Both the position numbers and the translations under genes were made by a program. Of a stretch of 64,000 nt of DNA, positions 28,339-44,515 are shown piece after piece. The stretch is from Roseobacter sp. (GTDB lineage: Bacteria > Pseudomonadota > Alphaproteobacteria > Rhodobacterales > Rhodobacteraceae). The stretch covers positions 1-64,000 of the forward strand of contig PCCY01000010.1 of NCBI GenBank assembly GCA_002731875.1, given 5' to 3'. Every line of letters begins with the position of its first letter. The first letter of the stretch is position 1. Below the pieces are notes generated by a model. The model saw only the letters and a list, made by a program, of their open reading frames with translations, was not told where the DNA came from and ran no database searches.

Positions 28339-29241
28339 TCAGATCACTTCGGGGCGCTTATCGCCGTCAAACGGGAAGCGTTTGCGGAAATCATCCGCGA
28401 TGGTGTTGAAATCCACCCACTCCACGCCGGAATGCCCGTTGATATATTCGATCAGCCTTTCAAGCATAAGCAGGACCTGCGGGCGGCCTGCGACGTCGGG
28501 GTGAATGGTGATCGGGAACACGCCATATTCCATTTCGCGGTACACCCAGTCAAACTGGTCTTTCCACAACTGTTCAATGTCGCGGGGGCTGACAAAACCG
28601 TGGCTGTTGGGGGCATTCTTGATGAACATCATCGGGGGCAGATCATCCACGTACCAGTTGGCACCGATGTCAACCAGGTCGATCTCTTTACCGTGTTTCA
28701 GCGGGTGCATCCATTCCCCCGCGGTTTTGGAATAGTCGATCACATTCCATTCGTCACCGACCCGCGCATAAAACGGCTGAAAATCGCGGTAACTCTGGCT
28801 GTGATCGTAGGAAAACCCGTATTTGCCCAGAAGCGCCGCCGTCACGTTCGACATTTCCCACCACGGGGCCACATATCCCTTAGGTGCCTCGCCGGTAAGC
28901 CCCTTGATCAGTTCGATGGACTTGACCAGAACGTCCTCCTCCTGGGAAGGCGTCATGGCGACGGGGTTCTCATGCAGATACCCATGTGCGCCAATCTCGT
29001 GACCGGCTTCGACGATCATGTCCATCTCTTTGGGGAATGTCTCGAGCGAGTGGCCGGGAACAAAGAAAGACGTCCGCATTTCATATTTTTTGAACAGTCG
29101 AAGCAAACGGGGCACCCCGACCTCGGTTGCGAAAATGCCGCGCTGTATGTCATTGGGCGAATCGCCGCCCCCATACGAACCAATCTGGCCCGCGACAGAG
29201 TCGATATCCGTGCCGAAGGCACAATAGATTTTTTTGGTCAC
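28339..29241 (-). CDS. NodB-fold hydrolase: cyclic imidase or polysaccharide deacetylase
   Basis: 300 aa metal-dependent hydrolase of the polysaccharide deacetylase (NodB, carbohydrate esterase 4) fold. Metal-site residues are visible: GTDIDS (Asp12, Asp14), [10 protein letters not shown] (His81, His86, His90), and [11 protein letters not shown] near the C-terminus. There is no signal peptide, so it is cytoplasmic, which argues against a cell-wall role. Its pattern ([47 protein letters not shown]) recalls the Helicobacter HP0310 protein and, from memory, bacterial cyclic imidases of this fold. Next to an amidase and an ABC importer, cyclic imide ring opening is the more likely job. GTG start with AGGAG upstream. 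Confidence 0.8.
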
Positions 29242-29285: not shown

Positions 29286-30638
29286 TCAGCCGCGGATGAT
29301 GTCCTCGCAGCCCAAAGCTGCCCGTAGTAACGCCGTGTCTTGTCCGGTCGGGGCAGACAGCAGAAAACCTGTCGGCATGCCATCGGCGTCGGTCCCGTTT
29401 GGAATGGACACACCGCACCAATCCAGGAAATTTCCCAAACTGGTGTTGCGCAGCGTCAGTCCATTGTGGCGAAAGAATTCGTCTTGATCCGCTTCCAGGG
29501 GCGCGGTTTCCATCGCAGTGGTCGCTGTTGTCGGACACAGGACGATGGCATTCGCGATCCTTGCTGCGGTCGATGCCATAAGCCGGTACCGGGCTTCCTG
29601 AAGCATAAGAACATCAACCGCGCTCATGGTTTCCGCCAGCTTGATGCGGCGCACCACCCGTGCATCCATCTGCGCTGCGGCGGGGCCGCACACCCGGTCA
29701 CGGTGTATCATCAGAGCCTCTGCACCCGCCAGAAACCCGTGACGCGCGATCAAATCGCTAAGCTCGGACAGTTCGGGCAATGAAATACGCGTGACCTTAG
29801 CACCTGCTGACTCGAGCCGTGCTACCGTGGCGTCGAAATTTGCTGAAACAGCAGGCATCACCCCGTCAAACAGGATCTGGTCGGGGATAACGAAGGACAA
29901 TGTCTTGGCGGGCACGGCCTCGGCCTCGGGCCTGTCTTTGCCTCGCAGCACCGCATCGAACAAGGCGCAATCGGCCACGGTGTGGGCCAGCGGTCCAATT
30001 GTGTCTAGAGACGGGGCCAGCGGATAGACCCCTTGCATCGAATACCGACGCGATGAGGTCTTGTAGCCGACAACTCCATTGAACGACGCGGGAATTCTGA
30101 CCGACCCTCCGGTGTCGGACCCCATCGACAGAGGCACGATGCCAGCCGACACCACCACCCCCGAGGCCGAAGACGACCCGCCGGGACTGCGTGTTTGTCC
30201 TGTCGGTGCATGTATGTTGCGCGGGGTCCCGTAATGGGGGTTAAGTCCGATGCCGGAATAGGCGAATTCGGTCATGTTTACGGTTCCGGTGGTAACCATT
30301 CCTGCCCTGTGGGCCGTCGCAACGACCTGGGCGTCTGCCGTTGCCGGCGGATCGGTCCTGGTGACGACGGCCCCGGCGGTGGTCACGCGACCCTTCAGGT
30401 CAAAAAGATCCTTCCATGCGACAGGAACCCCGTCGAGAGGGCTGGCGGGCAGCCCGGCCTGAAGCCGCAAGCGCGACGCATGTGCTTCGACCATCGCCCG
30501 TGAGCGCGTGGTTTCGATATAGATCGCGCTGTCGCCATGTTGCTCGAGGCGCTCGTATACCTCTTCGGCCAACGTAACCGGGTCTAGTTTTCCCGTCCTC
30601 AGGCGTTCTGAAATCTCAGTTGCGGTGGCATGAACCAT
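29286..30638 (-). CDS. Amidase (amidase-signature family)
   Basis: 450 aa serine amidohydrolase of the amidase-signature family, cytoplasmic. The Ser-cisSer-Lys triad can be placed: Lys76 in VPVAWKDLFDL, Ser155 in GGSSSASG, and nucleophile Ser179 in SDTGGSVRIPA. Start 30638 (MVHATATEISERL) was preferred to 30686 because it lies 11 bases after the ATPase stop with AGGA upstream. It could hydrolyse the half-amide produced by the neighbouring imidase-like enzyme, but the family is too broad to name a substrate; GatA is unlikely because gatC and gatB are absent. Confidence 0.88.
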   Translation of the reverse strand: MVHATATEISERLRTGKLDPVTLAEEVYERLEQHGDSAIYIETTRSRAMVEAHASRLRLQAGLPASPLDGVPVAWKDLFDLKGRVTTAGAVVTRTDPPATADAQVVATAHRAGMVTTGTVNMTEFAYSGIGLNPHYGTPRNIHAPTGQTRSPGGSSSASGVVVSAGIVPLSMGSDTGGSVRIPASFNGVVGYKTSSRRYSMQGVYPLAPSLDTIGPLAHTVADCALFDAVLRGKDRPEAEAVPAKTLSFVIPDQILFDGVMPAVSANFDATVARLESAGAKVTRISLPELSELSDLIARHGFLAGAEALMIHRDRVCGPAAAQMDARVVRRIKLAETMSAVDVLMLQEARYRLMASTAARIANAIVLCPTTATTAMETAPLEADQDEFFRHNGLTLRNTSLGNFLDWCGVSIPNGTDADGMPTGFLLSAPTGQDTALLRAALGCEDIIRG

Positions 30639-30649
30639 TGTTTTGCGTC

Positions 30650-31756
30650 CTAGCGGTCGATCACGGTAGCATTGGCGGATTTCCACGCGACGAAAGCACT
30701 TCCCCCGGCTTTCAACCTGTCGCGATACTTGTCGACATGGCCTTCGACATTGATCTGCTTGCCATCATCAAAACGCACGACCATGTGCATGATGTGACCC
30801 ACGATCTGCAAACGTTCTATGGTGCAGGGGATCGCGTTTGAACCAAAGGCGGCGCGCATTTCTGATTCGGGCACATCGGCGGGAACCAGATCAACCGCCT
30901 CCGCGGGCAGGATTATGCTCATCTCGCGACCCACATGTGCATCGGTTTTGGCGCGGTTGGCACCGGCCAAATTGCCGAACGCTGTTTGCAGAAACACGTT
31001 GCCGTTCTGCTGCGATGTGACCGTGCCGGGCAGGATCGTGTTGGAACCGATAAACCGGGCCACAAACTGACTGCTGGGACGCGTGTACAGTTCGCGCGGC
31101 GGGCTGATCTGTTCGATCCGGCCCGCATTCATCACGACGATACGGTCCGACAGGGCAAGCGCTTCGGATTGGGCATGGGTCACGAACACAAAAGTGATGC
31201 CCAGATCGCGCTGCAGCAGCTTCAGTTCGTTTTGAATACTCTTGCGAAGGTTTGCATCAAGCGCGCCAAGCGGTTCGTCCAGCAACAGGATGTCCGGTTC
31301 GACCACAAGCGAACGTGCCAGGGCTATACGCTGTCGCTGGCCGCCCGATAGCCGTGCTGTCGGCATCTGGGCAATATCGCTCAGACCCAGCTTTTCAAGG
31401 ATTTGATCAACCTTGCGATCGGCCTGCGCCTTTGGCATTTGCTTGACTTCAAGGCCAAACAGGACGTTCTGCCGCACGTTCATGTGTGGAAACAGCGCGT
31501 AGTTCTGGAAGATCATCGAGGTCGGGCGTTTTTCGGGTAGCTGATCGTTTACGCGTTTGCCTCGGATCATCAGGTCGCCTGAGGTGACTGTCTCGAAGCC
31601 GGAAATCATCCGCAAGGTCGTAGATTTTCCGCAGCCCGAGGGGCCAAGAAAGGCAATGAACTCGCCTTTTTCGACGCTCAGATTGAAGTCGATGACGGCC
31701 GGAGTTCCATTGTCGTAGGTCTTGTAGACATTTGTGAGCTGAAGATCGTAGGCCAA
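30650..31756 (-). CDS. ABC importer ATPase, PotA-like (canonical site)
   Basis: 368 aa nucleotide-binding subunit of a spermidine/putrescine-type importer. It has Walker A GPSGCGKST (38-46), signature LSGGQRQRIALARS, Walker B DILLLDEPLGALD, and an intact H-loop VTHAQSEA with His194, then a C-terminal TOBE domain. The TTG start at 31756 (MAYDLQLTNVYKTY) has AGGAC upstream; the longer upstream frame reads through the intergenic gap and is not protein-like. It lies between the binding-protein gene and the amidase. A second, different ATPase gene opens the same operon, so the importer may use a heterodimer. Confidence 0.87.
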   Translation of the reverse strand: MAYDLQLTNVYKTYDNGTPAVIDFNLSVEKGEFIAFLGPSGCGKSTTLRMISGFETVTSGDLMIRGKRVNDQLPEKRPTSMIFQNYALFPHMNVRQNVLFGLEVKQMPKAQADRKVDQILEKLGLSDIAQMPTARLSGGQRQRIALARSLVVEPDILLLDEPLGALDANLRKSIQNELKLLQRDLGITFVFVTHAQSEALALSDRIVVMNAGRIEQISPPRELYTRPSSQFVARFIGSNTILPGTVTSQQNGNVFLQTAFGNLAGANRAKTDAHVGREMSIILPAEAVDLVPADVPESEMRAAFGSNAIPCTIERLQIVGHIMHMVVRFDDGKQINVEGHVDKYRDRLKAGGSAFVAWKSANATVIDR

Positions 31757-31826
31757 GGGAAACGTCCTGTTCGTGATAAAAGGGAAGGGTGGGTTCAGCC
31801 GGTAACCCGGCTGAACCATCCGTGAT

Positions 31827-33050
31827 TTAGGCTGACAGGAATTCGTCCCATTTGCGGATGAGAAGGTCATATTCGTCGGGCCACTGGTGCCAGTAAGCGA
31901 CGTTCGCCGCACGCTCTTCCAATGAACCGCCGTCGCGCAGGTCGCCTTCCTTGATGCCGCGCTCGGCTTCGCCGACCCAGGGTTTCCCCTCGTACCAGAA
32001 CGCGTATTTATCGGGATCCATGACGTTCTTGACGTTTGTGGTCGGCGAATAATAACCCTGTTCGGACACGGCAATCGCGGGAGGACCGGAGAGCCAGTAA
32101 TCGGCATATGCAGTGACGGCTTCGAGGTTCGGAGAGGTTTTTAGCGGTGCCACGCCGATCGCCCAGCCACGATAGCCGCTTTTCATCGTCGCATAGGAGC
32201 ATTCAACACCCTGCGCCTTGACCGCCATGACAGCAGGCTGCCATGCGTCGGCAATCACCATCTCGCCCGATGCGAGCAGGTTCACCAGTTCGCCGAAGTC
32301 GCCCCAAAGTGCGCGGAACTGACCTTCTTTCTTTTTCGAAATCAGGAACTTGGCCGCTTCTTCGATGGCTGCTGCATCGGGGTTCCCCGGGTTGCTTACT
32401 TCAAGAAGTCCCAGTTCGTTCATGGCCAGAACCGCCTGACCAAAGGCAATCAGAGGGTCAACGTTGAGGCCGGTCTTGCCCTTGAACTTCGGGTCAAACA
32501 ACGCCGACCAGTTCGATGCTTCCTCGGCGTCTACCAGATCGGGGCGATAACCGATGGAATCGTAGTTATAAACCGTCGGCACCATGTTCAGGCGTGTCTG
32601 GCTTTCGTCTTCCCAGATTTGACCGACGATTTGCTGGTTCAGCGCCCAACGGTCCGACGGCTTTGTGAAGGTTTCGCGAATACCGGCCCAATTGGTCAGA
32701 TCCGCCGCAGCGACCGGGGCCAATTTGTCTGTGGCAACCATTGCGGCCAGACGTTCGCCGATGATCTCCCAGCAGTCGTATGCATCCGACCCAGACAGGA
32801 TTTCGGTTTGGGTGTTTGGAAAGATATCTGCCTTGCCGCTGACCGATCCGACGCCCGACTGCGCCTTGAAATCGTTCAATATGCGCTCTTGCACAGTCAC
32901 GGACAGGCCGACTGTGCGCAGTTCCTGATTGCCCAGGTTCGCGGCAAAGGCTTGTTGGGCACCAAGGAACGGCATCCCACCGGCTGCCAGCGCGGCCCCG
33001 CCAGCAGTCGTCTTCAGAAAGTTGCGCCTTGAGAAATTTGAGTGTGTCAC
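31827..33050 (-). CDS. Tat-exported solute-binding protein, PotD-like
   Basis: Periplasmic ligand-binding subunit (407 aa) for the adjacent importer. The N-terminus carries a twin-arginine signal SRRNFLKT (7-14), hydrophobic AGGAALAAGG, and a likely cut after AQQAFA near residue 35. The mature protein is a type II binding fold: AYDCWEIIGERL, VYNYDSIGYRPDL, FKGKTGLNVDP, SGEMVIADAWQPAVM, DYWLSGPPAIAVSEQGYY. GTG start with AAGGAG upstream. Ligand unknown; the polyamine-type family also carries amino-acid-like and opine-like compounds. It is homologous to the leaderless protein at 38602-39837. Confidence 0.9.
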   Translation of the reverse strand: MTHSNFSRRNFLKTTAGGAALAAGGMPFLGAQQAFAANLGNQELRTVGLSVTVQERILNDFKAQSGVGSVSGKADIFPNTQTEILSGSDAYDCWEIIGERLAAMVATDKLAPVAAADLTNWAGIRETFTKPSDRWALNQQIVGQIWEDESQTRLNMVPTVYNYDSIGYRPDLVDAEEASNWSALFDPKFKGKTGLNVDPLIAFGQAVLAMNELGLLEVSNPGNPDAAAIEEAAKFLISKKKEGQFRALWGDFGELVNLLASGEMVIADAWQPAVMAVKAQGVECSYATMKSGYRGWAIGVAPLKTSPNLEAVTAYADYWLSGPPAIAVSEQGYYSPTTNVKNVMDPDKYAFWYEGKPWVGEAERGIKEGDLRDGGSLEERAANVAYWHQWPDEYDLLIRKWDEFLSA

Positions 33051-33115: not shown

Positions 33116-33871
33116 TCAGTAGCGCCCGACCATCAGCCCACCGTCCACCGTAATGACTTGTCCGGTCAGATAGCGCGCGGCATCCGACGCGAGAAATCCC
33201 ACCACATCAGCGATGTCATCGGGTTGTCCGATGCGGCCCAATGGGACGATATCGCCCACGGTCTTGGCACCTTCGGGGCCAAGGGAATGTTTCTCGGATA
33301 AAAGCTGGGCGGTGCGGATGTAACCCGGCGCGATGCCGTTCACGCGTATCCCACTGCGGCCCAATTCAACCGCAAGTCCGCGCACCAACCCGACCACACC
33401 GGCCTTGGCCGATGAATAATGCACATGCTCATCCCACCCATAGGCCACACCCATGATCGAGGATAAGCAGATAATCGAACCGCCGCCGCGCGCTTTCATG
33501 CCAGCGGCCGCCGGGCGAATGACCCGCAGCATCCCCTTGAGGTCGATGTCAAAGGTCTGGTCCCATTTTTCGTCGGTTAGCTGTTCTATCGGTACCCGGC
33601 GCGCGATACCCGCGTTGGCGACAATGGTGTCAATCCTGCCAAAGCGGGTCTCGATATCCTTGACCACAGAGTTGGCGCGGGTAGTGTCTCTTACATCCAG
33701 GTGCTGAAACTCGGCCTCACCGCCGGCTTTGCGAATTTCCTGAACGACGCTGCGGCCGTCATCCTCGAGAACATCGGTGACGACGACGTGATCACCCCGT
33801 GCGGCGAGCATCTTGGCCGTCGCACGTCCAATGCCGATACCGGCCCCCGTGATCAATGCGATTGATGTCAT
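33116..33871 (-). CDS. Short-chain dehydrogenase/reductase
   Basis: 251 aa NAD(P)-dependent oxidoreductase. Cofactor motif TGAGIGIGRA near residue 8, acidic VTDVLEDD after beta 2 (favours NAD), NAG in VANAGIARR, catalytic Ser in CLSSIMG and YSSAKAG (YxxxK), C-terminal LTGQVITVDGG. Start 33871 has GGGAGA upstream and overlaps the stop of the other dehydrogenase by ATGA; the longer frame from 34018 would run through that gene. Probably oxidises a hydroxyl group of the imported compound. Substrate unknown. Confidence 0.88.
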   Translation of the reverse strand: MTSIALITGAGIGIGRATAKMLAARGDHVVVTDVLEDDGRSVVQEIRKAGGEAEFQHLDVRDTTRANSVVKDIETRFGRIDTIVANAGIARRVPIEQLTDEKWDQTFDIDLKGMLRVIRPAAAGMKARGGGSIICLSSIMGVAYGWDEHVHYSSAKAGVVGLVRGLAVELGRSGIRVNGIAPGYIRTAQLLSEKHSLGPEGAKTVGDIVPLGRIGQPDDIADVVGFLASDAARYLTGQVITVDGGLMVGRY

Positions 33872-34584
33872 AACATTACGTCTCCCGAATTTGGTGACAG
33901 TGTCTGGCCCACATAAAGGCGTGCCGCGTCGGAACATAGAAACGCAACGGTTTCTGCCACGTCCTCCGGTTCTCCGAAGTGGCCCAATGGCAGGTCGGCG
34001 GCCTTGGCATTGCGCCAATCTTCCGAGAGCGCGCGCACCAGCGGGGTGTTGATCGGGCCGGGGGCCACTGCGTTAACACGCACGCCTTGGTTCGATACCT
34101 CTCGTGCCAAAGCCTTGGTCAGCCCGATTATGGCCGCCTTCGCAGCAGAATAATGAACCAGCTCAACACCGCCAATCTGGCCAAGCTGCGAGGCCATGTT
34201 CACCACGCAGCCTGATTTCCGGGTCAGCATGTCGGGCAACACCGCGCGGGTGCACAGGAACGTTCCGCGCAGGTGCACGGCAATCATCCGGTCGAATTCG
34301 GCAGGGTCCAGATCCACAAACCGGGACTGGTGGACGTGACCTGCGTTGTTTACCAGATGTGTTGCAGGGCCGTATGCGTCAACGCAGGCTTGTATCATCC
34401 CTGCGACATCGGCCTCGTTCGAAATGTCGCCTTGCACGGCCAGTCCGCCAATGTCATCGGCGGCTTTGTTGGCAGCATCGCCGTCATAATCATTGACCAC
34501 CACATTATAATCCAGCGCGGCAAGCTTTCTTGCGACCGCAAGGCCTATGCCTGATCCGGCACCGGTTACGATTACGGTGCTCAT
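33868..34584 (-). CDS. Short-chain dehydrogenase/reductase
   Basis: 238 aa, second dehydrogenase of the importer operon: TGAGSGIGLAV cofactor loop, VVNDYDGDAA, VNNAGHVHQ, NMASQLGQIGG (here Ser at the usual catalytic place), YSAAKAAI, and a final VGQTLSPNSGDV. Overlaps by ATGA with both the permease upstream and the next dehydrogenase. The two are only moderately alike, so they likely act on different steps or on a heteromer, not as a recent duplication. Confidence 0.87.
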   Translation of the reverse strand: MSTVIVTGAGSGIGLAVARKLAALDYNVVVNDYDGDAANKAADDIGGLAVQGDISNEADVAGMIQACVDAYGPATHLVNNAGHVHQSRFVDLDPAEFDRMIAVHLRGTFLCTRAVLPDMLTRKSGCVVNMASQLGQIGGVELVHYSAAKAAIIGLTKALAREVSNQGVRVNAVAPGPINTPLVRALSEDWRNAKAADLPLGHFGEPEDVAETVAFLCSDAARLYVGQTLSPNSGDVML

Positions 34585-35432
34585 GCGATATCCTCCTGCA
34601 TCGCCATCTTTTTGGCGCGCCGCACGCTCAGGCCCATCAAGATGCCATAGACAGCCAATAGAGCGAACGAGAACAGTGTCGTCATCACCCCGAATGCAAA
34701 GATGTTCGGGTGGATTTCGACCGAAAATGTTCCGTAAATCGCCAGTGGCAGGGTCTGGTCACGTCCCGATGCGAACAAAGTGCGAGGGAATTCATCAAAG
34801 CTGAGGGTAAATGCGAACAGCATCGCCGACAGGACCCCAGGGAAGATAAGCGGAAATGTTACCTTGCGAAATGTCGTCATCGGCGACACGCCCAACGACC
34901 ACGATGCTTCTTCAACAGAGCCGTCAAAGCGGTTAAGAATGGCCAGCATCACAAGGAAAGCAAAGGGAAAAGTGTAAACCACATGGGCCAGAAACGCCGT
35001 GCTCCACCAGTGACGTTCAACCCCCACGACGTTGTTGGCCAACAGCGAAGTCCCCAAGCCGGTCAGGACACCGGGCACCATCATGCCCAACACGATCAGG
35101 TAAAACACGATGCCCGCGCCGCGAAACCGCTTGCGGAAAGCCTGTGCAGCCATGACACCCAGCACGGTTGCGGTAACCATGGTCATAAAGGCCAATGTTA
35201 GTGAACGTACCAGTGCCTCTCCCACGGGCAGGGGCGCGATGCGGGATGGCGGGGTCAGACCAAAAAGATGCTTGTACCAGTAGGTCGACCATTCAATGAT
35301 CGGAAACTGCGGGCCGCCCTCTGGCCCTTGTTGGAAGGACAGGATGCCCAACACAATGAACGGACCGTATAGGAACAGGATGAACAAGCCGACATAAACA
35401 GCGAGGATCGGTTTCAAGACCTTGGATTCCAT
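34581..35432 (-). CDS. ABC importer permease, PotC-like
   Basis: 283 aa inner-membrane subunit with six helices. It has the ATPase-coupling EAA loop EEASWSLGVSPMTTFRKVTFPLIFPG near residues 180-205. The N-terminal helix (AVYVGLFILFLYGPFIVLGILSF) is typical of PotC-type permeases. It is followed three bases after the partner permease and overlaps the first dehydrogenase gene. Confidence 0.92.
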   Translation of the reverse strand: MESKVLKPILAVYVGLFILFLYGPFIVLGILSFQQGPEGGPQFPIIEWSTYWYKHLFGLTPPSRIAPLPVGEALVRSLTLAFMTMVTATVLGVMAAQAFRKRFRGAGIVFYLIVLGMMVPGVLTGLGTSLLANNVVGVERHWWSTAFLAHVVYTFPFAFLVMLAILNRFDGSVEEASWSLGVSPMTTFRKVTFPLIFPGVLSAMLFAFTLSFDEFPRTLFASGRDQTLPLAIYGTFSVEIHPNIFAFGVMTTLFSFALLAVYGILMGLSVRRAKKMAMQEDIA

Positions 35433-35435
35433 CGA

Positions 35436-36302
35436 TTATATCTCCCGTTTCAGATCAACGATGCGCAGGAAACCCGCCACCACGATGCCCAGCAGGATGG
35501 TAAGGATCACCCCGACAACCGACGCCATCGCCCATTTCAATGATCCGACCTGGGTCACGATGATATTGCCCAGAAGGTTGACTTTGCGCCCCGAAAGCGC
35601 ACCCGAAGTGGCAAATTCACCCAACACCATCACACTCACAAAGATCGCGCCGACGACGACCCCCGGCAGGCTGAGCGGAAAGATGATCTTCCAGAAGATA
35701 CGCCCGAACCCGGCACCCAGATCTCGGGCGGCTTCGATGATATTGTGGTCGATGCGGCCCAGCATGAACGCGATCGGCCCCACCATGAACACCACGTAAA
35801 TCTGCGTCATGCCGATGATCACCGAAAGTTCTGAGAACAGCAGAACCTCGATCGGCGTTTGGATAAGTCCGAGTTTCTGGAGAATGATGTTGATCGCGCC
35901 TTCCTTGCCAAGCATCGGTCGCCACGCAAGCACACGGATCAGGAAAGAGGTCCAGAAGGGGATCACGCAAAGAACCAGCAAAACGGTTGAGATTGTCTTG
36001 CTCTTGACCATTAGGCCCACGTAAAGCGCCGCCGGGTAACCGATGACGAAGGTCAGGGTAAGAACGATGAGCCAAAGGCGGATCGTCGTCCATAACGCAC
36101 CGACATAAGCCTCTGATGCGAAGAAGTTTTTCCAACTGTCCAGTGTCAGTGTCGAGTTAATCGCGAAGGTCGTCTGGGTCCAGAACGACACGTAAACGAT
36201 CATCATGATAGGCGCGATAAGGAACAGGATCATCCAAACGACACCGGGGGCGAGAAGGCGAAAAGTCGTTTTCTTCTGCCTGTTGCGGCTTGTGGCGGTC
36301 AT
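35436..36302 (-). CDS. ABC importer permease, PotB-like
   Basis: 288 aa inner-membrane subunit of the same importer. Six helices, with the EAA-like loop IEAARDLGAGFGRIFWKIIFPLSLPG. Start 36302 (MTATSRNRQKKT) was chosen over 36347 because it overlaps the ATPase stop by ATGA; the basic N-terminus precedes the first helix APGVVWMILFLIAPIMMIVYV. Pairs with the PotC-like subunit as a heterodimeric channel. Confidence 0.92.
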   Translation of the reverse strand: MTATSRNRQKKTTFRLLAPGVVWMILFLIAPIMMIVYVSFWTQTTFAINSTLTLDSWKNFFASEAYVGALWTTIRLWLIVLTLTFVIGYPAALYVGLMVKSKTISTVLLVLCVIPFWTSFLIRVLAWRPMLGKEGAINIILQKLGLIQTPIEVLLFSELSVIIGMTQIYVVFMVGPIAFMLGRIDHNIIEAARDLGAGFGRIFWKIIFPLSLPGVVVGAIFVSVMVLGEFATSGALSGRKVNLLGNIIVTQVGSLKWAMASVVGVILTILLGIVVAGFLRIVDLKREI

Positions 36303-37384
36303 CTTGCTGTCTCCTTGCCAAAAACGATCGCGTGTTCGGGATTCCACGAGAGCGTGTAGTTTTCGCCAACCGTCAAAGGCCGTGGTTCGCCGAGACTCAG
36401 GTGGTGATCGACTTCGACCGTCTTTTGATCTTCGGTTTCGAACAGGAAGATGATCGAAGATCCAAGGTATTCGCTCGCCAGGAACCGGGCAGGCAGGGCC
36501 GGGCCTGGCAGGTTGGCATCGCCCGCGTCGAATATCTGGGTGCGATCATACCGAATGGCATATGTGTCGCTTTTGTTTTTGCGTGGGTTTGTGACAGGCA
36601 CTGCCCCAAACGCCCCAGTGAAGATTCCGTTTTCAAGACTGCCTTCAAACAGGTTGAAACGATTAAGAAACTTTGCAACATCGGAAACAACCGGGCCATC
36701 ATAGATTGTATCTGGGGTGTCGTATTGAACGATCCGGCCGGCATCGAGAACCGCAACTTTATCACCCATCGCCAGCGCCTCGGTTTCGCTTCCCGTCACG
36801 TGCAGAAAGGTGACATCGAGCCGCTCTCGGATAGCGCGCAGTTCAACTTGCATGCGTTCGCGCAGATTGGCATCAAGCGCTCCGAGCGGTTCGTCAAGCA
36901 GCACCAGTTTGGGCTGCATCACAAGCGAACGGGCCAGCGCCACACGCTGTTTCTGGCCGCCGGATATCTGTTCCGGACTGCGATCTTCCAGTCCGGCAAG
37001 GCCCACCATCTCTATCGACGATTTTACACGTTCCGTTATCTCGTCTTTTGGCAGCGCCTGCGCGCCGTGACGAAGGCCGAACGCCACATTTTCGAAAACC
37101 GTAAGGTGCGGAAACAACGCAAAGTTCTGGAACACGAACCCGATGCCACGTTCATGTGCGGGTAAATCCGTGATATCGCGCCCTTGGAACCAAATGCGCC
37201 CTGCATCCGGTGTTTCGAAACCGGCGATCACGCGTAACAGGGACGTTTTACCGGAACCCGAAGGCCCGAGTAAGGCGATATAGGCATTGTCTTCCGCGAC
37301 GAAATCAATGCCGTCTAGCGCCGTCAAATTACCGTATCTGCGCGTCACACCTTCCAGTCGGAATATAGGGTCGCGTTGCGTCAT
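36299..37384 (-). CDS. ABC importer ATPase, PotA-like with altered H-loop
   Basis: 361 aa nucleotide-binding subunit, first gene of the importer operon. Walker A GPSGSGKTS (40-48), signature ISGGQKQRVALARS, Walker B LVLLDEPLGALD and a C-terminal TOBE domain are present. But the H-loop reads HVTGSETEA, where the family has VTHxxxEA: Gly198 stands in place of the switch His that positions the attacking water. The second operon ATPase (30650-31756) keeps this His. By comparison with asymmetric ABC proteins this subunit may bind ATP but hydrolyse poorly. ATG preceded by GAGGG. Confidence 0.9.
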   Translation of the reverse strand: MTQRDPIFRLEGVTRRYGNLTALDGIDFVAEDNAYIALLGPSGSGKTSLLRVIAGFETPDAGRIWFQGRDITDLPAHERGIGFVFQNFALFPHLTVFENVAFGLRHGAQALPKDEITERVKSSIEMVGLAGLEDRSPEQISGGQKQRVALARSLVMQPKLVLLDEPLGALDANLRERMQVELRAIRERLDVTFLHVTGSETEALAMGDKVAVLDAGRIVQYDTPDTIYDGPVVSDVAKFLNRFNLFEGSLENGIFTGAFGAVPVTNPRKNKSDTYAIRYDRTQIFDAGDANLPGPALPARFLASEYLGSSIIFLFETEDQKTVEVDHHLSLGEPRPLTVGENYTLSWNPEHAIVFGKETAR

Positions 37385-37621
37385 AGAGCCCTCTTTTTTT
37401 GTGAAGCCAAGGTGCGATCGTCCGTCGCGAACTGCTTAGAGCGTCAGTCCGATCGCATCTTCACAATAATGTATAACGTATGAAATGACTGATCTCATTT
37501 TATTGCAAGAGTCATTATTTAAGAATTTATTGCACTAAATTCGTCATTCAGTTGAAAATATAGCCAAAATCGCAGGTAAATCCTCAAAACTAAATGAACA
37601 TCGAACGCAAAATCCGTTTTT
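37385..37621. promoter_or_regulatory. AT-rich control region upstream of the importer operon
   Basis: 237 bp between the GntR gene and the importer operon, both reading left. It is notably AT-rich. An inverted repeat AATGACT (37484-37490) and AGTCATT (37510-37516) surrounds a minus-strand TTGCAA that could be a -35 element, though no clear -10 follows at standard spacing. A further dyad-like ATGTATAACGTAT (37470-37482) lies on the operon side. Likely target region for the neighbouring GntR regulator. Confidence 0.5.
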
Positions 37622-38605
37622 TTAGACTCGGCTGAGGTATTTGGGAATCGAGTCGCTCTCGGGTATCAAGGCGACAATTTTCAGCCGTGCCAAACTTTTG
37701 TAAGACAGGATGCGAAGGTGTTCGCGAAGGTACTCGGTCGCCGCGTGGATCTGGTGTGATTTGATCAGCCGAAACAGCGTCCCGTATTGGTCCAGCGCCA
37801 CGGTATCCACCGGAAGACCCAGGTCGCTCAGGGCTTTGTCCATGGCCGATAGCAACAAGCGGTTGTTGGTGATGATTTCGACCAACGCGCTGTTGGGTGC
37901 CCGGGACAGGCAGTATTTCATGAGCGCGTCTTCAAGCTCTGCGGCGTCCTTGGTCATGCCGCTTTCAATCTGGTCACAAACCCGCGCGATCTGGGCGTGG
38001 TCCATCCAATCGGCGGCCAATCGCAGGGCCGCAGGTTCCATGATACTGCGCAGTTCAAACTTTTCGCGCAGTGTCCGCGCGGTCAGCGGACCAGCGAGCC
38101 AGTGCGAAGTGGCGCCTTTTCGTATCAACCCGCGTTCGTTCAGACGGCTGAGCACATCGCGTGCCACCGTGCGACTGACGCCAAGATGGTTGGCCAATTC
38201 TGTCTCTATCACCCTGAATTCACCAAAGATCTGGCAAGCCGCTATTTCGGCTTCGACCTTGTCATAGACGCGCTGCCACGTACCCCGGACAGCCAAGGCG
38301 GATCGGGATGAGGACGGGATTTCAAAGTCGAATTCATCCAGTGACTTGCGGATAGGGCGAAGCCCGGGCAAGGCGGGGCCAACCAGATAGCCGCGCCCCC
38401 GAAACCGGTGAATAAGCCCTTCGGCGTTGAGCATTCGCAAAGACGCCTGCACGGGTGCGCGGCTTGTTTGCATCACTTTTGCAATGGGGCCTTCGATCAG
38501 CACCAGTCCATCGGGCAGACGCCCGGATGTGATATTATGGCGCAAGATGCGGCTGATGGTATCGTAAAGCGGTTCCTGACCGGAATTGGGTTGCTTTCCA
38601 GTCAT
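37622..38605 (-). CDS. GntR-family regulator with two winged-helix domains
   Basis: 327 aa regulator with an unusual layout. A first winged helix of GntR type at about residues 14-80 (LYDTISRILRHNITSGRLPDG, then PIAKVMQTSRAPVQASLRML, wing GRGYLVGP) is followed by a second one at about 108-170 (TWQRVYDKVEAEIAACQIFG, then ELANHLGVSRTVARDVLSRL). A FadR/FCD-like helical domain fills the rest (KFELRSIMEPAALRLAADWM). Ordinary family members have one DNA-binding domain. Start 38605 overlaps the stop of the leaderless binding-protein gene by ATGA; the start at 38644 would overlap more. Probably regulates the importer operon immediately downstream. Confidence 0.88.
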   Translation of the reverse strand: MTGKQPNSGQEPLYDTISRILRHNITSGRLPDGLVLIEGPIAKVMQTSRAPVQASLRMLNAEGLIHRFRGRGYLVGPALPGLRPIRKSLDEFDFEIPSSSRSALAVRGTWQRVYDKVEAEIAACQIFGEFRVIETELANHLGVSRTVARDVLSRLNERGLIRKGATSHWLAGPLTARTLREKFELRSIMEPAALRLAADWMDHAQIARVCDQIESGMTKDAAELEDALMKYCLSRAPNSALVEIITNNRLLLSAMDKALSDLGLPVDTVALDQYGTLFRLIKSHQIHAATEYLREHLRILSYKSLARLKIVALIPESDSIPKYLSRV

Positions 38606-39837
38606 GGTGTCGCTGCCCCCAGGGCCGCGATGAAACGGTTCCACGAACGGGCGGCGTAGTTATATTCGTCCATTACAGTGTTCCACAGCGCTATCCGACT
38701 GACCCGCTCGCGGTAGGCACCGCCGGGGCGGCGCTGACCCTGGCGGACCACGATCCTGCCGTCGGGGCCTTTAAGATCACACCGTGCGATATCACCATCA
38801 TACCAGTATCCCCACTCCTCGGGGCTAAGGTATTCGCGCAAGCCTTCGGCATTGGTCATATAGTGGCCTTGTCGCGCCATCACGGCTCCGGCAGGTCCGG
38901 TTAACCACCAATTCAAATAATCATACGCCATGTCGAGCTTGCTCCCGGTCAGGTGGCGGGCCAAGGATGCGCCGCCATGCCACGCACGATAGCCTTCCCG
39001 TGGGAAGCTTTCCCGAAAGACGTCTTTCATGGGCCCAAGATTGGCGTATGAGGGCGACCACATGCTTTGCACCGACACACGGTCGGCATGAACCAGGGCC
39101 TCGGCTTGATCGGGCGAAACCCAGCTCCCTACAAAGAACCCCTGTTGACGAAGGGTTTCCAACAGCGCCATGAGGCTGTCGATTTCATCTACCGTCATGT
39201 TTCCGATGTCTTGAAATGTCAGGTCACCATTGGCTTCTGCAGCCAAAGCTGCGTCGAAGATCCCGATCGCCGGCTCGTCTACCAATGCGATCCGACCACG
39301 GGCCCGCCGGTCGAGCAGCCAGGCCCAGCTTGATCCCTCCGGCCCTTCCGCGCCGAACAGTCGGGTATCATAACCAAAGCTATCGACGTTATGGGCCGTG
39401 GGCAGCATGCTGATTGTTGGCATCGGTTGCTGGCCCAGCGTCCCATCGGGCTGCACATACAACTTGCGCACCGGCGCATCGCCATGTCCGGTCCAGGTGT
39501 ATTTACTGATGCCGCCAGTCTTTGCCAGATCGCCAATGTTATCCCATTGTTTGATCCGTCGAGTTTCAATCGGTTGCAAAGCACCCCAATACCAGACGAT
39601 ATCAAGGTTATGAAAGCACTGTTCATAGATGTCATAGTTCATCGGATCCATCGCCGCCCGGTGCTGGCAGGTCAGGAAATCAAGCGACTCATGCTGGATA
39701 TCAAAGCCTAGATCCGCGATCGCCATCTGTCGCACCTCGTCGAGCAAGGTTACATCTGTGCCCCGGACCCGAAGAATACGACGTTTCACTTGCGGCGGCG
39801 ACGACAGCTTGTGCGGGTTGCGGGTAATAGCTGGCAT
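38602..39837 (-). CDS. Leaderless solute-binding-protein homologue, probable cytoplasmic sensor
   Basis: 411 aa protein related to the PotD-like binding protein of the neighbouring importer: shared patterns include HNVDSFGY versus YNYDSIGY, WWLTGPAGAVMARQGHY versus YWLSGPPAIAVSEQGYY, and WGYWYDG versus YAFWYEG. Unlike it, there is no signal peptide. The N-terminus (MPAITRNPHKLSSPPQVKRR) is hydrophilic and runs straight into the first domain strand, and an in-frame TGA lies two codons upstream of the ATG, excluding a longer leader. It should therefore be cytoplasmic. Its stop overlaps the GntR start (ATGA). I infer a ligand sensor or co-regulator for the GntR protein rather than a transport subunit. 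Confidence 0.85.
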   Translation of the reverse strand: MPAITRNPHKLSSPPQVKRRILRVRGTDVTLLDEVRQMAIADLGFDIQHESLDFLTCQHRAAMDPMNYDIYEQCFHNLDIVWYWGALQPIETRRIKQWDNIGDLAKTGGISKYTWTGHGDAPVRKLYVQPDGTLGQQPMPTISMLPTAHNVDSFGYDTRLFGAEGPEGSSWAWLLDRRARGRIALVDEPAIGIFDAALAAEANGDLTFQDIGNMTVDEIDSLMALLETLRQQGFFVGSWVSPDQAEALVHADRVSVQSMWSPSYANLGPMKDVFRESFPREGYRAWHGGASLARHLTGSKLDMAYDYLNWWLTGPAGAVMARQGHYMTNAEGLREYLSPEEWGYWYDGDIARCDLKGPDGRIVVRQGQRRPGGAYRERVSRIALWNTVMDEYNYAARSWNRFIAALGAATP

Positions 39838-40178: not shown

Positions 40179-41150
40179 TCAGCCCAGATGGGCGCGGACA
40201 GCGGCGAGCATTTTCTTGCGCGCGGCGCGGGCTTGCAACGCTTCGTCCATGTCGACCTTGCGGAATTTCACCTGGGTGTGCGGCTGAAGCTGACCGATCA
40301 AATCCATGTCAGCCGAAATTATTGCACCGAGGGTGAAATAGCCGCCGCCCGAAACCGCATCGCGGTGCAGAACGATCGGCTCCAAACCGCCAGGAACCTG
40401 AATTGAACCGTAGGAATAGCAGCCATCCACGATATTGGACGGGTCGGCCCCGGCACCAAAGGGTTGTTCACGCTCTACAAACTCCAGCGGTTTCCCACCC
40501 TTGAACCGGTATCCCATGCGGTCTGCTTCCAAGGCGACTGTCCAGTCATCACGAAAGAACCCTTCCTGCGCGGCGCTGGTTAGGCGATGCCAGTAAAGGC
40601 CGGGAAGAACCCGAAGCTCGGCCGGTTTGCCAGGCATGCGGCGCAAGTTCTCTGGCACGCTCAGCCCCGGTTCGATCATGTCAGCCTCTCCGACAGGAAT
40701 GACATCGCCAGCCTGAATGTTGCGACCGTCGATGCCGCCCAACGCACCAATCGGATAGGTGGAACGGCTTTCCAGGGCAGCGGGCGTATCTATGCCTCCG
40801 CTAATGGCGATATAGGCCCGAGCGCCCGATTTAAGGAAGTCAAAGCTTAGCGTCTGACCTGATTTGACTTCAAAGGCGGTCCATCCTTCCTGCAGCACCC
40901 CGTCGACTTTGGCGGGCAGATCGGCCCCGGTCACGGCGACCAGAGCGTCTTGGTCGAACACGATCTGCGGCCCCATGAACACGACCTCCAGGCCCGCCGC
41001 GCCTTCGGGGTTGCCGACCAGCATGTTGGCCACGCGAAGCGCGAAACGATCCATCGCACCACCGATAGGTATGCCAAGATGAAAATAGCCCGGACGACCC
41101 AGATCCTGGATCGAGGTCGAAAGGCCCGGTTGCATGACTTTAAACGACAT
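40179..41150 (-). CDS. pxpC: 5-oxoprolinase subunit C / KipA-type protein
   Basis: 323 aa protein of the KipA / allophanate hydrolase subunit 2 family (also annotated biotin-dependent carboxyltransferase). Visible motifs: VMQPGLSTSIQDLGRPGY, GIPIGGAMDRFALRVAN, AVTGADLPAKVDG, YIAISGGIDTP, LGAIISADMDLIGQLQPH. In PxpABC it works with PxpB and PxpA to open 5-oxoproline using ATP. Last gene of the five-gene pxpA-BCCP-biotin carboxylase-pxpB-pxpC unit; it overlaps pxpB by 11 bases. Confidence 0.88.
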   Translation of the reverse strand: MSFKVMQPGLSTSIQDLGRPGYFHLGIPIGGAMDRFALRVANMLVGNPEGAAGLEVVFMGPQIVFDQDALVAVTGADLPAKVDGVLQEGWTAFEVKSGQTLSFDFLKSGARAYIAISGGIDTPAALESRSTYPIGALGGIDGRNIQAGDVIPVGEADMIEPGLSVPENLRRMPGKPAELRVLPGLYWHRLTSAAQEGFFRDDWTVALEADRMGYRFKGGKPLEFVEREQPFGAGADPSNIVDGCYSYGSIQVPGGLEPIVLHRDAVSGGGYFTLGAIISADMDLIGQLQPHTQVKFRKVDMDEALQARAARKKMLAAVRAHLG

Positions 41151-42015
41151 TGAGCGCCTCCATCAGTTTGGCGTTGGTGCCTGGCATGTCCGCGTTGAAA
41201 GCTTCCAGATCGAAATCGACTTCGGCGATGCGCGGCACGTATGTGTCGGCTTCAACCTCGGCCAGGATGCGATCATATTCGGCACGATCAATCGGCTTCC
41301 ACTTCACGATGTCGCCGGGTTTGAAGAACACCATGAAATCGCTAAGGTAACTTTGTTTCTGATCGGGATCGAAAATCGGCATCGGGGTCACGCCAAACAT
41401 TTGATAGCCACCTGCACCACGCACCGAATAAATACAGGAAAAGCAGCCGCCGTACCCCACTGTCAACTTTGGCGTGTCGGTGCGCGGTCTTAGGTATTTG
41501 GGGACCTGTAACTGCTTTTCGCGTTCAACCAGCTGATAGAGAAAAGGGAGCCCGGCAACAAAGCCCACCATCGAGACGAACCACGGTTGCGAATGATGGG
41601 CCTCGATAAACGCTTCTGCACTGTCGAATCCGTTGATCCGCGCCGCATAATCCAGATCGGTGCCGGACGGGTCCTGGTGACGCTCGCGGAACCGCATGAG
41701 GGTCTCATGCGTCCAGGGATCTTGATAATAGACGGGAATTTCAATGATACGCGTCTTCAGGCGCTTGTCTGCATCCTCGGCCTTGTCCTCAAGTTCTTGA
41801 ACTTTCTTCATCATCTCCTCGGGCGCGATGATGTCGGGATCATAGCGCACCTGAAAGGATGCGTTCGCCGGGCAGATTTCCGTCACGCCTTTGATATCGG
41901 CATTACGGACGGCGTTGCTCATCGACAGGGATTTGAAAAATGCATCAAGCGACATTTCGTCATCCACTTCGACGTAGATGTGTTCGTCGCCACCGTAGGT
42001 ATAACGTGTTTTCAC
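41140..42015 (-). CDS. pxpB: 5-oxoprolinase subunit B / KipI-type protein, divergent
   Basis: 291 aa, longer than the usual 220-240 aa of PxpB/KipI. Family marks are present but altered: FVAGLPFLYQ in place of the usual GFxPGFPYLG-like loop, and GGCFSCIYSVRGAGGYQMFG where the family generally has GGxTGIYP...GGWxxIG. The two cysteines in this loop are unusual. The altered centre suggests a related but different cyclic amide as substrate, or dependence on the biotin proteins encoded upstream. GTG start behind AAAGGAGG, the strongest ribosome site in the operon. Confidence 0.82.
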   Translation of the reverse strand: MKTRYTYGGDEHIYVEVDDEMSLDAFFKSLSMSNAVRNADIKGVTEICPANASFQVRYDPDIIAPEEMMKKVQELEDKAEDADKRLKTRIIEIPVYYQDPWTHETLMRFRERHQDPSGTDLDYAARINGFDSAEAFIEAHHSQPWFVSMVGFVAGLPFLYQLVEREKQLQVPKYLRPRTDTPKLTVGYGGCFSCIYSVRGAGGYQMFGVTPMPIFDPDQKQSYLSDFMVFFKPGDIVKWKPIDRAEYDRILAEVEADTYVPRIAEVDFDLEAFNADMPGTNAKLMEALNVV

Positions 42016-42031
42016 GATTTGCCTCCTTTGG

Positions 42032-43399
42032 TTAAGGGGTTTGTTTTAGATTGCCTGCGGCCAGCCAAGGCTCCAGCCATTGCGTATGAAAGTCGTCTGC
42101 ACGTACAGCAGCGTCGTGGGCCAATGCCAGATGAAGTGGTTTCGTTGTCTTGATGCCGCCGATCTCCAGCCCGTTGAGGGCCGATATCATCAGGTCGATC
42201 GCCGCTTCACGGTTTTCGGCGTGGACGATCAGTTTGCCCAGAAGGGAGTCGTAGAATGGCGGAACCTGATACCCTTCGTACAAAAAGTGGTCAAAACGGA
42301 TGCCTTCACCCTCTGGTACGCGCAACGTGCCGATTTTCCCGGGCGATGGCAGAAACTGCATCAGCGGGTCTTCGGCATTGAGCCGCACTTCAATCGCATG
42401 TCCGTTGCGGGTGATGTCGGACTGGGACTTGCGAAGTTTGCCGCCACCTGCGACGTGGATCATTTCCTGCACTAGATCCGTGTCGGTCAACATTTCCGTA
42501 ACGGGGTGTTCGACCTGAATGCGGGTGTTCATTTCTATGAAAAAGAACTCTTTGGTCTGGCTGTCGTAAAGATACTCAAGCGTCCCCGCGCCCACATAGT
42601 TGACAGCCTTGGCAAGCGCGACCGCGGTATCGCACAAATGGGCGCGGGTTTCCTGGTCAAGGCACGTGGCACCTGCTTCTTCCCAGACTTTCTGGCGACG
42701 GCGCTGCATAGAGCATTCACGTTCAAAGTAGTGAACCGCATCCGTACCATCGCCCATGATCTGCACCTCGATATGGCGTGGTGAATTGATCGCGCGCTCA
42801 AGGTACAGACCGCCGTCGCCGAAAGACGCCTTGGCCTCGGCCTGCGCCTGGGGTGCCATCTTGCGCAGGTCCGCCTCGGTATCGGCGATGCGAATACCCT
42901 TGCCTCCACCGCCAGCAGCCGCCTTGATCATCACCGGATATCCCAGTTTCGCGGCGACGTTGACGGCGTCTTCCACTGTGTCCAGGCGACCCTTTGAACC
43001 CGGAACCACCGGTACCCCGGCTGCCTCTGCGGCCTGTCTTGCCGCGACCTTGTCGCCCATTCGGTCAATCACGTCGGCGGAAGGCCCGACAAAGGTGATG
43101 CCAGCGGCATCCAGTGCGCGTACGAATTCGGCGTTCTCTGCCATAAAGCCGTAACCGGGGTGAACCGCATCCGCTTTGGTCGCCTTGGCGGCCGCGACCA
43201 CCGCTTCGATGTCCAGATAAGACTGCACCGCCTGAGCAGGCCCGATGCAAACGGCCTCATCCGCCAGCCGCACAGCCAGCATGTCGACGTCAGCTTCAGA
43301 GTGCGCTTGGATGGTGTGTATACCCATCGCCTTGGCCGCGCGAATGATGCGCACCGCGATTTCACCCCGATTGGCAATCAGCATGCGTTTGATTGACAT
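42032..43399 (-). CDS. Biotin carboxylase (AccC type)
   Basis: 455 aa ATP-grasp enzyme that carboxylates biotin on its carrier protein. N-terminal RMLIANRGEIAVRIIRAAK, HPGYGFMAEN, the glycine-rich ATP loop AAAGGGGKGIR, the metal-binding FFIEMNTRIQVEHPVTEM, and the C-terminal barrel domain are all present; full family length. Three bases after the biotin carrier gene. Located inside a 5-oxoprolinase-type operon and without accA or accD nearby, so it is probably a dedicated paralogue rather than the fatty-acid enzyme. Confidence 0.92.
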   Translation of the reverse strand: MSIKRMLIANRGEIAVRIIRAAKAMGIHTIQAHSEADVDMLAVRLADEAVCIGPAQAVQSYLDIEAVVAAAKATKADAVHPGYGFMAENAEFVRALDAAGITFVGPSADVIDRMGDKVAARQAAEAAGVPVVPGSKGRLDTVEDAVNVAAKLGYPVMIKAAAGGGGKGIRIADTEADLRKMAPQAQAEAKASFGDGGLYLERAINSPRHIEVQIMGDGTDAVHYFERECSMQRRRQKVWEEAGATCLDQETRAHLCDTAVALAKAVNYVGAGTLEYLYDSQTKEFFFIEMNTRIQVEHPVTEMLTDTDLVQEMIHVAGGGKLRKSQSDITRNGHAIEVRLNAEDPLMQFLPSPGKIGTLRVPEGEGIRFDHFLYEGYQVPPFYDSLLGKLIVHAENREAAIDLMISALNGLEIGGIKTTKPLHLALAHDAAVRADDFHTQWLEPWLAAGNLKQTP

Positions 43400-43402
43400 C
43401 CC

Positions 43403-43639
43403 TCAGCCCTCAAGCTCTGCAAGCGGTTGACCCGCGTTGATCGCCGCACCGTCCTCGGCGAGAAATTCCTTGAAGGTGCCCGAGGTTTCGGCTTTGACCT
43501 CGATGAAGGTTTTCATCACCTCGATCAAACCAATGACATCGCCCGCCGCGACGGAATCTCCTGGTTGTTTGAATTGCGGCTCGCCCGGTGCGGCCTGCGT
43601 GTAAAATGTGCCGGGGACGGGGGAAAGAACCTGTGCCAT
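43403..43639 (-). CDS. Biotin carboxyl carrier protein, short form
   Basis: 78 aa, essentially only the biotinyl domain: LSPVPGTFYTQ, GDVIGLIEVMKTFIEV, with Lys43 of EVMKTF as biotinylation site (the common form is EAMKM), and AINAGQPLAELEG. It lacks the N-terminal linker of AccB. Serves the biotin carboxylase encoded next. Good ribosome site AGGAGACCAAC before the ATG. Confidence 0.93.
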   Translation of the reverse strand: MAQVLSPVPGTFYTQAAPGEPQFKQPGDSVAAGDVIGLIEVMKTFIEVKAETSGTFKEFLAEDGAAINAGQPLAELEG

Positions 43640-43663
43640 GTTGGTCTCCTGGTTGAAGATTGA

Positions 43664-44443
43664 TCAAAGTGTTTTCGCGACTTCCGCCGCTGAGGCGATG
43701 CGAATTCCGGCATCCTGAAGGCCAGCGCGAATAGCCTGTCCCATCGTCAGGGCACCTGGTGTGTCAGAATGAAAGCAGATTGATTCAAAAGCGATGTCTA
43801 TGTCATCGCCCTCGACGGTGGTGACCTTGCCGGTCTTGCAGGCTTTTACGCATTTGGCGGCAATCTGCGCCGGATCGGGGCGCCCGACCTGACGTCGAAA
43901 TACGATTGAACCCGAGTTGTCGTATTCGCGATCGGCATAGAATTCGCGGATCACGGGGTGCCCGGCCCGTTTGGCAGCCTCGTAGGTTTTGGAGATTCCC
44001 ATGCAAAACAACAACGAGTCAGAGCTGGTATCCTGCAACGTATCAACCAGCATCTGCGATAATTCGTCGTTTACCGCTGCCTCCATATAAAGTGCACCGT
44101 GCAATTTTACGTGCTGAAGCGGGGCACCATAGCGCCTTCCGAACTCGCGAATGGCCCCGATCTGGTAGATGATATCGTTGATGAGCTCGTTCGGGTCGGT
44201 TTTGATAAACCGGCGTCCGAAACCCTGAAGATCTGCATAGCCGGGATGCGCCCCAAGCCCGACGCCATGCGCCTGAGCCAGTTTGACGACGCGGTCCATG
44301 GAGTTGGGGTCACCCGCATGAAAGCCCGCCGCGATATTGGCGGAACTGATGATTTTCATAATCTCTTGGTCCGGGGCGTCACCAAGCACCCACTGACCAA
44401 AACCTTCACCCATGTCGCAATTCAGATCGACGATCTCTTTCAT
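43664..44443 (-). CDS. pxpA: 5-oxoprolinase subunit A (LamB/YcsF family)
   Basis: 259 aa. The LamB/YcsF signature is present: DLNCDMGEGFG at the start, IISSANIAAGFHAGDP, GLGAHPGYADLQGFGRR, VKLHGALY, and CFHSDTPGALTMG near the end. In the PxpABC enzyme this subunit takes the activated lactam from PxpB/PxpC and completes hydrolysis. Start 44443 (MKEIVDLNCD) matches family N-termini; the frame from 44491 adds 16 residues without homology. First gene of its operon and divergent from a LysR regulator. Confidence 0.93.
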   Translation of the reverse strand: MKEIVDLNCDMGEGFGQWVLGDAPDQEIMKIISSANIAAGFHAGDPNSMDRVVKLAQAHGVGLGAHPGYADLQGFGRRFIKTDPNELINDIIYQIGAIREFGRRYGAPLQHVKLHGALYMEAAVNDELSQMLVDTLQDTSSDSLLFCMGISKTYEAAKRAGHPVIREFYADREYDNSGSIVFRRQVGRPDPAQIAAKCVKACKTGKVTTVEGDDIDIAFESICFHSDTPGALTMGQAIRAGLQDAGIRIASAAEVAKTL

Positions 44444-44515
44444 GATTGCATCCTTTTTCTGGTATGGGGCCACCATCGCATGCCAGAGCAAAATTGATAT
44501 TTCATTTTTTCACTG

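Follow-up and report, generated by a model that had tools for sequence, protein, structure and literature searches.

What can a PotD/PotF-like solute-binding protein do when its gene encodes no export signal and runs into the gene of a GntR regulator? This question is raised by a gene in a stretch of 64,000 nucleotides from a Roseobacter sp. genome (assembly GCA_002731875.1, contig PCCY01000010.1; hereafter the window), in which the pair lies between a cluster for an ABC importer and catabolic enzymes and the genes for PxpC, PxpB, AccC and PxpA (Table 1). The initial annotation had proposed that the product (leaderless solute-binding protein, LLSBP) binds the imported ligand in the cytoplasm and modulates the GntR protein in trans.

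Table 1. Positions of the window's features discussed in the text
Feature	Position	Strand	Basis or remark
COG0523 (CobW-like) GTPase	27023..27979	-	family match
Small MCxxCG protein, 101 aa	27976..28281	-	in front of COG0523 GTPase
Polysaccharide-deacetylase/PuuE-like hydrolase	28339..29241	-	allantoinase PuuE match far below cutoff
Amidase	29286..30686	-	NF004766 above its cutoff
ABC ATPase 2 (PotA-like)	30650..31738	-	start approximate, within ORF 30650-32107
TatSBP, the importer's Tat-exported binding protein	31827..33050	-	TAT_signal
SDR dehydrogenase b	33116..33871	-	start chosen within ORF 33116-34018
SDR dehydrogenase a	33868..34584	-	family match
ABC permease B (PotC-like)	34581..35432	-	Pfam/NCBIfam
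ABC permease A (PotB-like)	35436..36302	-	start chosen within ORF 35436-36347
ABC ATPase 1 (PotA-like)	36299..37384	-	Pfam/NCBIfam
Candidate GntR operator ATTTCATACGTTATACATT	37468..37486	-	GntR-ATPase 1 intergenic region, inferred
GntR regulator, 327 aa	37622..38605	-	Pfam GntR (2 stretches), HTH_Crp_2, FCD
ATGA overlap, LLSBP stop/GntR start	38602..38605	-	4 nt common to both genes
LLSBP, leaderless PotD/PotF-like solute-binding protein	38602..39837	-	ORF, 411 aa
PxpC, PxpB, AccC, PxpA	40179..44458	-	upstream of LLSBP; outer start approximate

Between positions 30650 and 37384 the window encodes two different PotA-like ATPases, both with TOBE domains, and two SDR genes lie within the transporter operon. 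The importer's own binding protein, TatSBP, contains R8 and R9, which are invariant in 40 aligned sequences. Relatives of the PuuE-like hydrolase are annotated as polysaccharide deacetylases, and AccC was called biotin carboxylase-like by reading alone. The gene for the small MCxxCG protein overlaps the start of the COG0523 GTPase gene by 4 nt, and MCxxCG-like proteins precede a COG0523 GTPase also in R. johnstonii, Paraburkholderia, Klebsiella and Thioclava; the small protein is perhaps a metal-handling partner of the GTPase.

LLSBP starts with ATG in an open frame of 413 aa, has a hydrophilic N-terminus, and is preceded by the codons TGA-TAC-ATA, so that a longer in-frame start is excluded; the lack of a signal peptide and the stop two codons upstream were thus read correctly at the outset. 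Residues 1-12 of its AlphaFold2 model have a pLDDT below 50. A GTDB scan found at least 568 stretches encoding LLSBP relatives, and no leader was seen by eye in any of the 80 LLSBPs from the best 80 of these loci. The window's in-frame stop and these relatives led us to reject a missed leader or frameshift. A family search for LLSBP yielded 115 matches in 104 of 394 genomes, 16 of them leaderless and 99 other. A rule requiring twin arginines plus an uncharged stretch flagged 3 of 95 LLSBPs (1 of the 80 and 2 of 15 family members, the sixteenth, L011, having been read directly at its N-terminus), and by reading these three flagged leaders appear to lie upstream of the likely starts; the rule is crude and caught only 44 of 76 TatSBPs. 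Among the 99 other matches, all 94 to which the rule was applied (80 + 14) look Tat-exported and the match in G010 is Tat-like by sequence, with four outside the count. The most hydrophobic 14-residue window upstream of the core has a median of 0.33 and a maximum of 1.66 in LLSBPs, against a median of 1.29 and a minimum of 0.97 in the Tat partners; the groups overlap, and this measure was rejected as a separator. Cysteine content was likewise discarded as a location signal, since it does not set LLSBPs apart. A cytoplasmic location, as first proposed, is well supported by this comparison of relatives. Several database records (L137, L350-L353) label LLSBP 'extracellular solute-binding protein' or, oddly, 'signal peptide prediction'.

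LLSBP itself had no match in Pfam or NCBIfam, and none in the PDB by direct sequence search. SBP_bac_8 was matched by 28 of 52 aligned relatives at E values up to 1, the best being 2.4e-13, and combining 14 relatives into a profile retrieved YdcS, PotF and PotD from the PDB (best E 5.5e-11). The AlphaFold2 model, built from an alignment of 52 sequences (the window's and 51 from the best 80 of at least 568 loci, thinned), reached a pLDDT of 89.1 and a pTM of 0.86. Foldseek placed PotF/PotD at the top (E 1.2e-15, TM 0.64/0.76), and the matches listed, 50 of 894 reaching E 0.001, were all solute-binding proteins. LLSBP is therefore predicted to adopt the two-lobe type II binding-protein fold, and it lacks the export signal of a PotD/PotF-type solute-binding protein of an ABC importer.

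The paralogy to the importer's binding protein that the initial annotation had asserted stood in part. TatSBP is a distant homologue (26% identity over 298 aa, E 2e-31) and the sole other LLSBP match in the source genome at E <= 0.001 (28%), but the nearest exported relatives, at 33-38% identity, form another Tat-exported family, whose genes adjoin ABC importer genes where seen. In a tree of 56 binding proteins, the 27 leaderless rows constitute one clade with support 100/100, in which L042 and L046 sit on long branches, and TatSBP belongs to a separate, distant clade. The leader was probably lost once in the LLSBP lineage. In a class-wide sample, the L046 protein was matched in 41 of 367 genomes: the window's protein and that of G537 are leaderless and share a cluster with a GntR gene, a further 25 appear by eye to be Tat-exported, three of one family have an uncertain start, and the remaining 11 were unassigned or outside inspection. 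PotD-like proteins of three genomes of one family (L261 6875-8155, L262 6909-8189, L263 6796-8076), encoded next to no recognised importer or GntR gene, have a likely start that leaves no clear leader, the start being uncertain; two of them were placed in the tree, inside the exported clade, and they possibly represent a second, independent leader loss. A search of viral contigs for LLSBP gave no match.

If LLSBP and GntR form an in-trans sensor-regulator pair, they should be inherited together. Among 394 family genomes, the 16 with LLSBP are exactly those with the 16 strongest GntR matches (E <= 1.8e-41; the next match follows at 6.0e-39), so that a lack of conserved linkage in other genomes, which would have told against the initial proposal, did not apply. 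Fourteen of the 16 also match TatSBP at E <= 3.7e-180; three further family genomes contain weaker TatSBP relatives only (E 8.9e-72 to 4.8e-61). The best 80 of at least 568 loci fall into two types. In type I (L057-L088; 30 loci viewed, L083 and L086 taken from coordinates only), GntR is encoded directly downstream of LLSBP in 32 of 32 loci. The shared ATGA that the initial annotation had pointed out in the window was confirmed, and the 4-nt overlap is kept in 29 of 30 tandem type I loci among these best 80, which is more than chance. In type II (L089-L136, 48 loci of the same best 80 of at least 568, mostly Rhizobiales), LLSBP follows a COG0523 GTPase gene and not GntR in 46 of 48 loci, with a 4-nt overlap in 23 of the 46. 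A GntR is nevertheless present in 46 of 47 type II genomes searched among the best 80 (L092 left out); the one exception to co-occurrence and linkage is L123, a MAG with LLSBP on a 6-kb contig and no GntR match at E <= 1e-15 in its bin. Where placed, in five family genomes and in Rhizobium johnstonii 3841 (pair RL_RS33620 and RL_RS33680), the type II GntR gene is divergent from ATPase 1, and further placements come from partial genes at locus edges. Elsewhere GntR precedes LLSBP (L042, L046), the two are convergent (L043-L045, L264) or divergent (Aminobacter), or they stand apart within one cluster (type II, Thioclava, Klebsiella). The claimed linkage thus holds as co-inheritance, but overlap and adjacency are not constant. 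No natural fusion of LLSBP with GntR came to notice among these loci.

The pair also occurs beside other transporters. In G010, where GntR precedes LLSBP, it is transcribed divergently from a different ABC importer that has a Tat-leader binding protein of its own; in G360 it lies on a 7-kb contig without a recognised ABC importer, on which one ORF reads like a DMT permease; and in Aminobacter sp. SR38 it lies near a BMP-type ABC importer, the annotated GntR and LLSBP starts overlapping there, perhaps because the GntR start was annotated too early. On plasmid pBN4 of Paraburkholderia aromaticivorans and on a Klebsiella pneumoniae plasmid, clusters encoding the amidase, polysaccharide deacetylase, two SDRs, CxxC protein, GTPase, LLSBP and GntR have an MFS transporter where the window has its PotD-type ABC system. 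The 29 kb examined in Paraburkholderia contain no annotated ABC importer, and in the Klebsiella stretch, on the far side of GntR and a LacI gene, lies an ABC importer of the amino-acid type, accompanied by a binding protein of its own. The LLSBPs of these two plasmids are 48% (Paraburkholderia) and 44% (Klebsiella) identical to the window's and leaderless as annotated. Service to an ABC importer is thus not what they have in common, an MFS permease being present in both clusters within the stretches shown. We know of no use of a binding protein to an MFS permease, and the retention of LLSBP beside one indicates that the function common to these clusters is probably not uptake. That LLSBP is a simple passenger of the window's ABC importer was rejected in view of L042, L046, Aminobacter, Paraburkholderia and Klebsiella. 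Records L351 and L352 show the same catabolic set with an MFS gene on the Paraburkholderia and Klebsiella plasmids, close to IS elements, which suggests that the module is passed between proteobacterial classes.

The regulator itself contains two winged helices and an FCD domain (residues 183-298), the N-terminal GntR winged helix and the FCD domain both scoring above the Pfam gathering scores and HTH_Crp_2 matching residues 134-164. In FCD domains, the effector site commonly binds a metal through three histidines, as with His134, His174 and His196 in TM0439 and His148, His196 and His218 in LldR (PMC4746285). The window's GntR does not have this site intact (E225, M229, Y274, H296). In contrast to the partnered regulators, of which 42 of 46 deviate from it, the set E225, H229, H274 and H296 (EHHH), whose last two residues are 22 apart as in LldR and TM0439, is present in 19 of 19 complete non-partnered paralogues, a 20th being incomplete. 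The 46 comprise the window, 15 family genomes and 30 of 48 matching genomes, and include two identical pairs. With four plasmid genomes added (R. johnstonii 3841, a repeat, counted once), the site is broken in 43 of 50 partnered genomes, again with 30 of the 48 matching genomes included, and intact in seven (G162, G350, G318, G360, Aminobacter, Paraburkholderia and Klebsiella). These seven indicate that LLSBP is no simple replacement for a lost sensor.

In the GntR tree, in which several long branches were flagged, the partnered rows are nearly one clade (two changes are needed, one due to an incomplete sequence), and the 43 broken sites therefore represent few events. The four of the seven intact regulators that are in the tree branch outside the main partnered group; decay of the FCD site thus probably followed the partnership, in few events. 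Such decay is as expected if sensing was shared at first and later transferred, and other causes are possible. Twenty weaker GntR copies (11 of 11 family, 9 of 19 wider), among which the copy of G216 is incomplete on a short contig, had no LLSBP match within the 9-17 kb searched around them, which led us to reject a need of every double-winged-helix GntR for LLSBP. Double-winged-helix GntR/FCD regulators that lack a leaderless partner (L211-L230) stand beside varied catabolic genes, by reading those for sugar-acid dehydratases, dehydrogenases and others.

With regard to the ligand, conservation within LLSBP is highest in the cleft-side loops (0.895 against a mean of 0.666, matched by no circular shift), a comparison biased by the fact that the loops were picked partly from their motifs. 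These motifs bear only indirectly on a loss of the ligand pocket, which the initial annotation had named as telling against its proposal. Invariant polar residues near the cleft are D69, Y71, Q73, H76, E188, R284 and H287. At 54 positions LLSBP and TatSBP agree, with conservation of >=90% in each; N150, D152, S153, W260 and the G-Y-R-x-W hinge are among these. At 53 positions, including T27, Y71, H76, H149, E188 and G288, they differ. The ligand of LLSBP is accordingly related, probably, to that of TatSBP and perhaps not identical with it. It may be a cyclic amide, imide or lactam, to judge from the adjoining genes for the PuuE-like hydrolase, the amidase, the Pxp proteins and the SDRs. A polyamine is unlikely, as the acidic residue of the PotF W-F-D motif, which we take to have a role in ligand recognition, aligns with a glycine in LLSBP.

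The block at 37468-37486 recurs in the majority consensus of 30 type I intergenic regions from the best 80 of at least 568 loci and is preceded there by a TTGACA-like box; the consensus of 41 type II regions from the same best 80 contains a related block, ATTNNATAC, also given as ATTGAATACAAAAATCATT. The motif ATYNNATAC is present in 11 of 30 type I and 36 of 41 type II regions among these 80 loci, compared with 2.3 and 2.4, respectively, in mononucleotide shuffles. The sequence TATTNNATAC was sought in the window and is absent from it. A common operator for both types was not retained, the statistics being modest and pointing to a conserved block only; in the window, we infer that this block could be the GntR operator.

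The absence of a leader, co-inheritance with GntR, varied adjacency and association with other importers fit a cytoplasmic GntR partner. We propose that LLSBP senses a ligand in the cytoplasm as the in-trans partner of the double-winged-helix GntR, which would govern the uptake and catabolism of what is perhaps a cyclic amide, a reading drawn from comparative sequence data and, in our estimate, evenly poised between right and wrong. A PotD-type binding protein without its Tat leader would act in the cytoplasm, in trans, with the GntR/FCD protein. Once the substrate of the catabolic genes, or an early product of its breakdown, had entered the cell, LLSBP would close on that ligand, and the open or closed form of LLSBP would set the occupancy by GntR of the importer and catabolic promoter at the 37468-37486 block; ligand binding, GntR contact, the direction of the effect and the operator are the conjectural parts of this scheme. 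Tentatively, and a shade less confidently, we suggest that the two genes form a portable module, in which the unexported binding protein is a detachable sensor of GntR, the regulator's own effector site was thereby free to decay in one large lineage, and the pair occurs beside various importers in alpha-, beta- and gammaproteobacteria.

The same four lines are also compatible with the main rival, a pathway role beside the COG0523 GTPase. LLSBP would then bind an intermediate and hold it, buffer it or pass it to the amidase, deacetylase-like and Pxp enzymes, perhaps together with the GTPase, and co-inheritance with GntR would reflect membership of the same regulon only. The position of LLSBP directly after the GTPase gene in nearly all type II loci of the best 80, often with the 4-nt overlap, and also in Paraburkholderia, Klebsiella and Thioclava speaks for this role, as do the small CxxC protein before the GTPase where looked at and the frequent location of LLSBP in front of an amidase or asparaginase gene. 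However, the 7-kb contig of L046 shows only GntR and LLSBP of the cluster, the 25 kb of Aminobacter contain no annotated GTP-binding protein or SDR, and GntR adjacency in four orientations would be left without explanation; we consider such a role rather unlikely. An enzyme built on the binding-protein fold and acting on the imported compound would account for the invariant polar residues near the cleft and for the catabolic neighbourhood, but it is quite improbable, given that the closest relatives are exported and encoded beside ABC importer genes, that no catalytic motif was recognised on reading, and that the fold matches listed (50 of 894) are without exception solute-binding proteins.

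Tat can carry leaderless partners, and LLSBP might reach the periplasm with a Tat-exported protein or from a missed start, as the name extracellular solute-binding protein in several records would have it. The in-frame stop in the window, the 80 relatives (best 80 of at least 568) in which no leader was seen by eye, and the retention of LLSBP in the Paraburkholderia cluster with an MFS transporter and no annotated ABC importer in 29 kb make this highly doubtful. Feedback on the ABC importer by trans-inhibition at the ATPases, suggested by the adjoining importer genes in type I and the TOBE domains on both ATPases, is the least credible, as LLSBP is kept where the transporter is an MFS protein or another ABC importer.

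If LLSBP is indeed a sensing partner of GntR, a GntR system would have handed ligand sensing over from a domain of the regulator to a stand-alone cytoplasmic binding protein, which to our knowledge has no precedent for this fold. The locus would show how transport proteins turn into regulators, the intact to decayed FCD sites would form a natural series, and widespread proteins that the records viewed here list as extracellular binding proteins would be cytoplasmic. Literature searches covering mostly papers available without subscription found no cytoplasmic or leaderless binding protein described with a GntR protein or in transcriptional control, and a search for the catabolic gene set returned nothing relevant. 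In PMC3333776, three tag fragments, which may not correspond to the older locus tags of the R. johnstonii cluster, led to nothing on its expression.

LLSBP resembles PotD and PotF in its fold and in the P-x-E-G-x-x-x-W hinge motif and differs from them in being leaderless and not tied to one ABC importer. Its partner has the GntR winged helix and FCD domain of LldR, TM0439 and CitO, from which it differs by a second winged-helix domain and, as in most of the partnered members examined, a broken effector/metal site. Regulators of the LacI, AraR and LysR families employ a binding-protein fold as cytoplasmic sensor in cis, fused to the DNA-binding domain, whereas LLSBP is encoded by a separate gene. 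Stand-alone binding proteins also act in signalling, as proposed here for LLSBP, in ChvE-VirA and LuxP-LuxQ, in which exported binding proteins signal from the periplasm to membrane receptors; LLSBP, by contrast, has no recognised export route.
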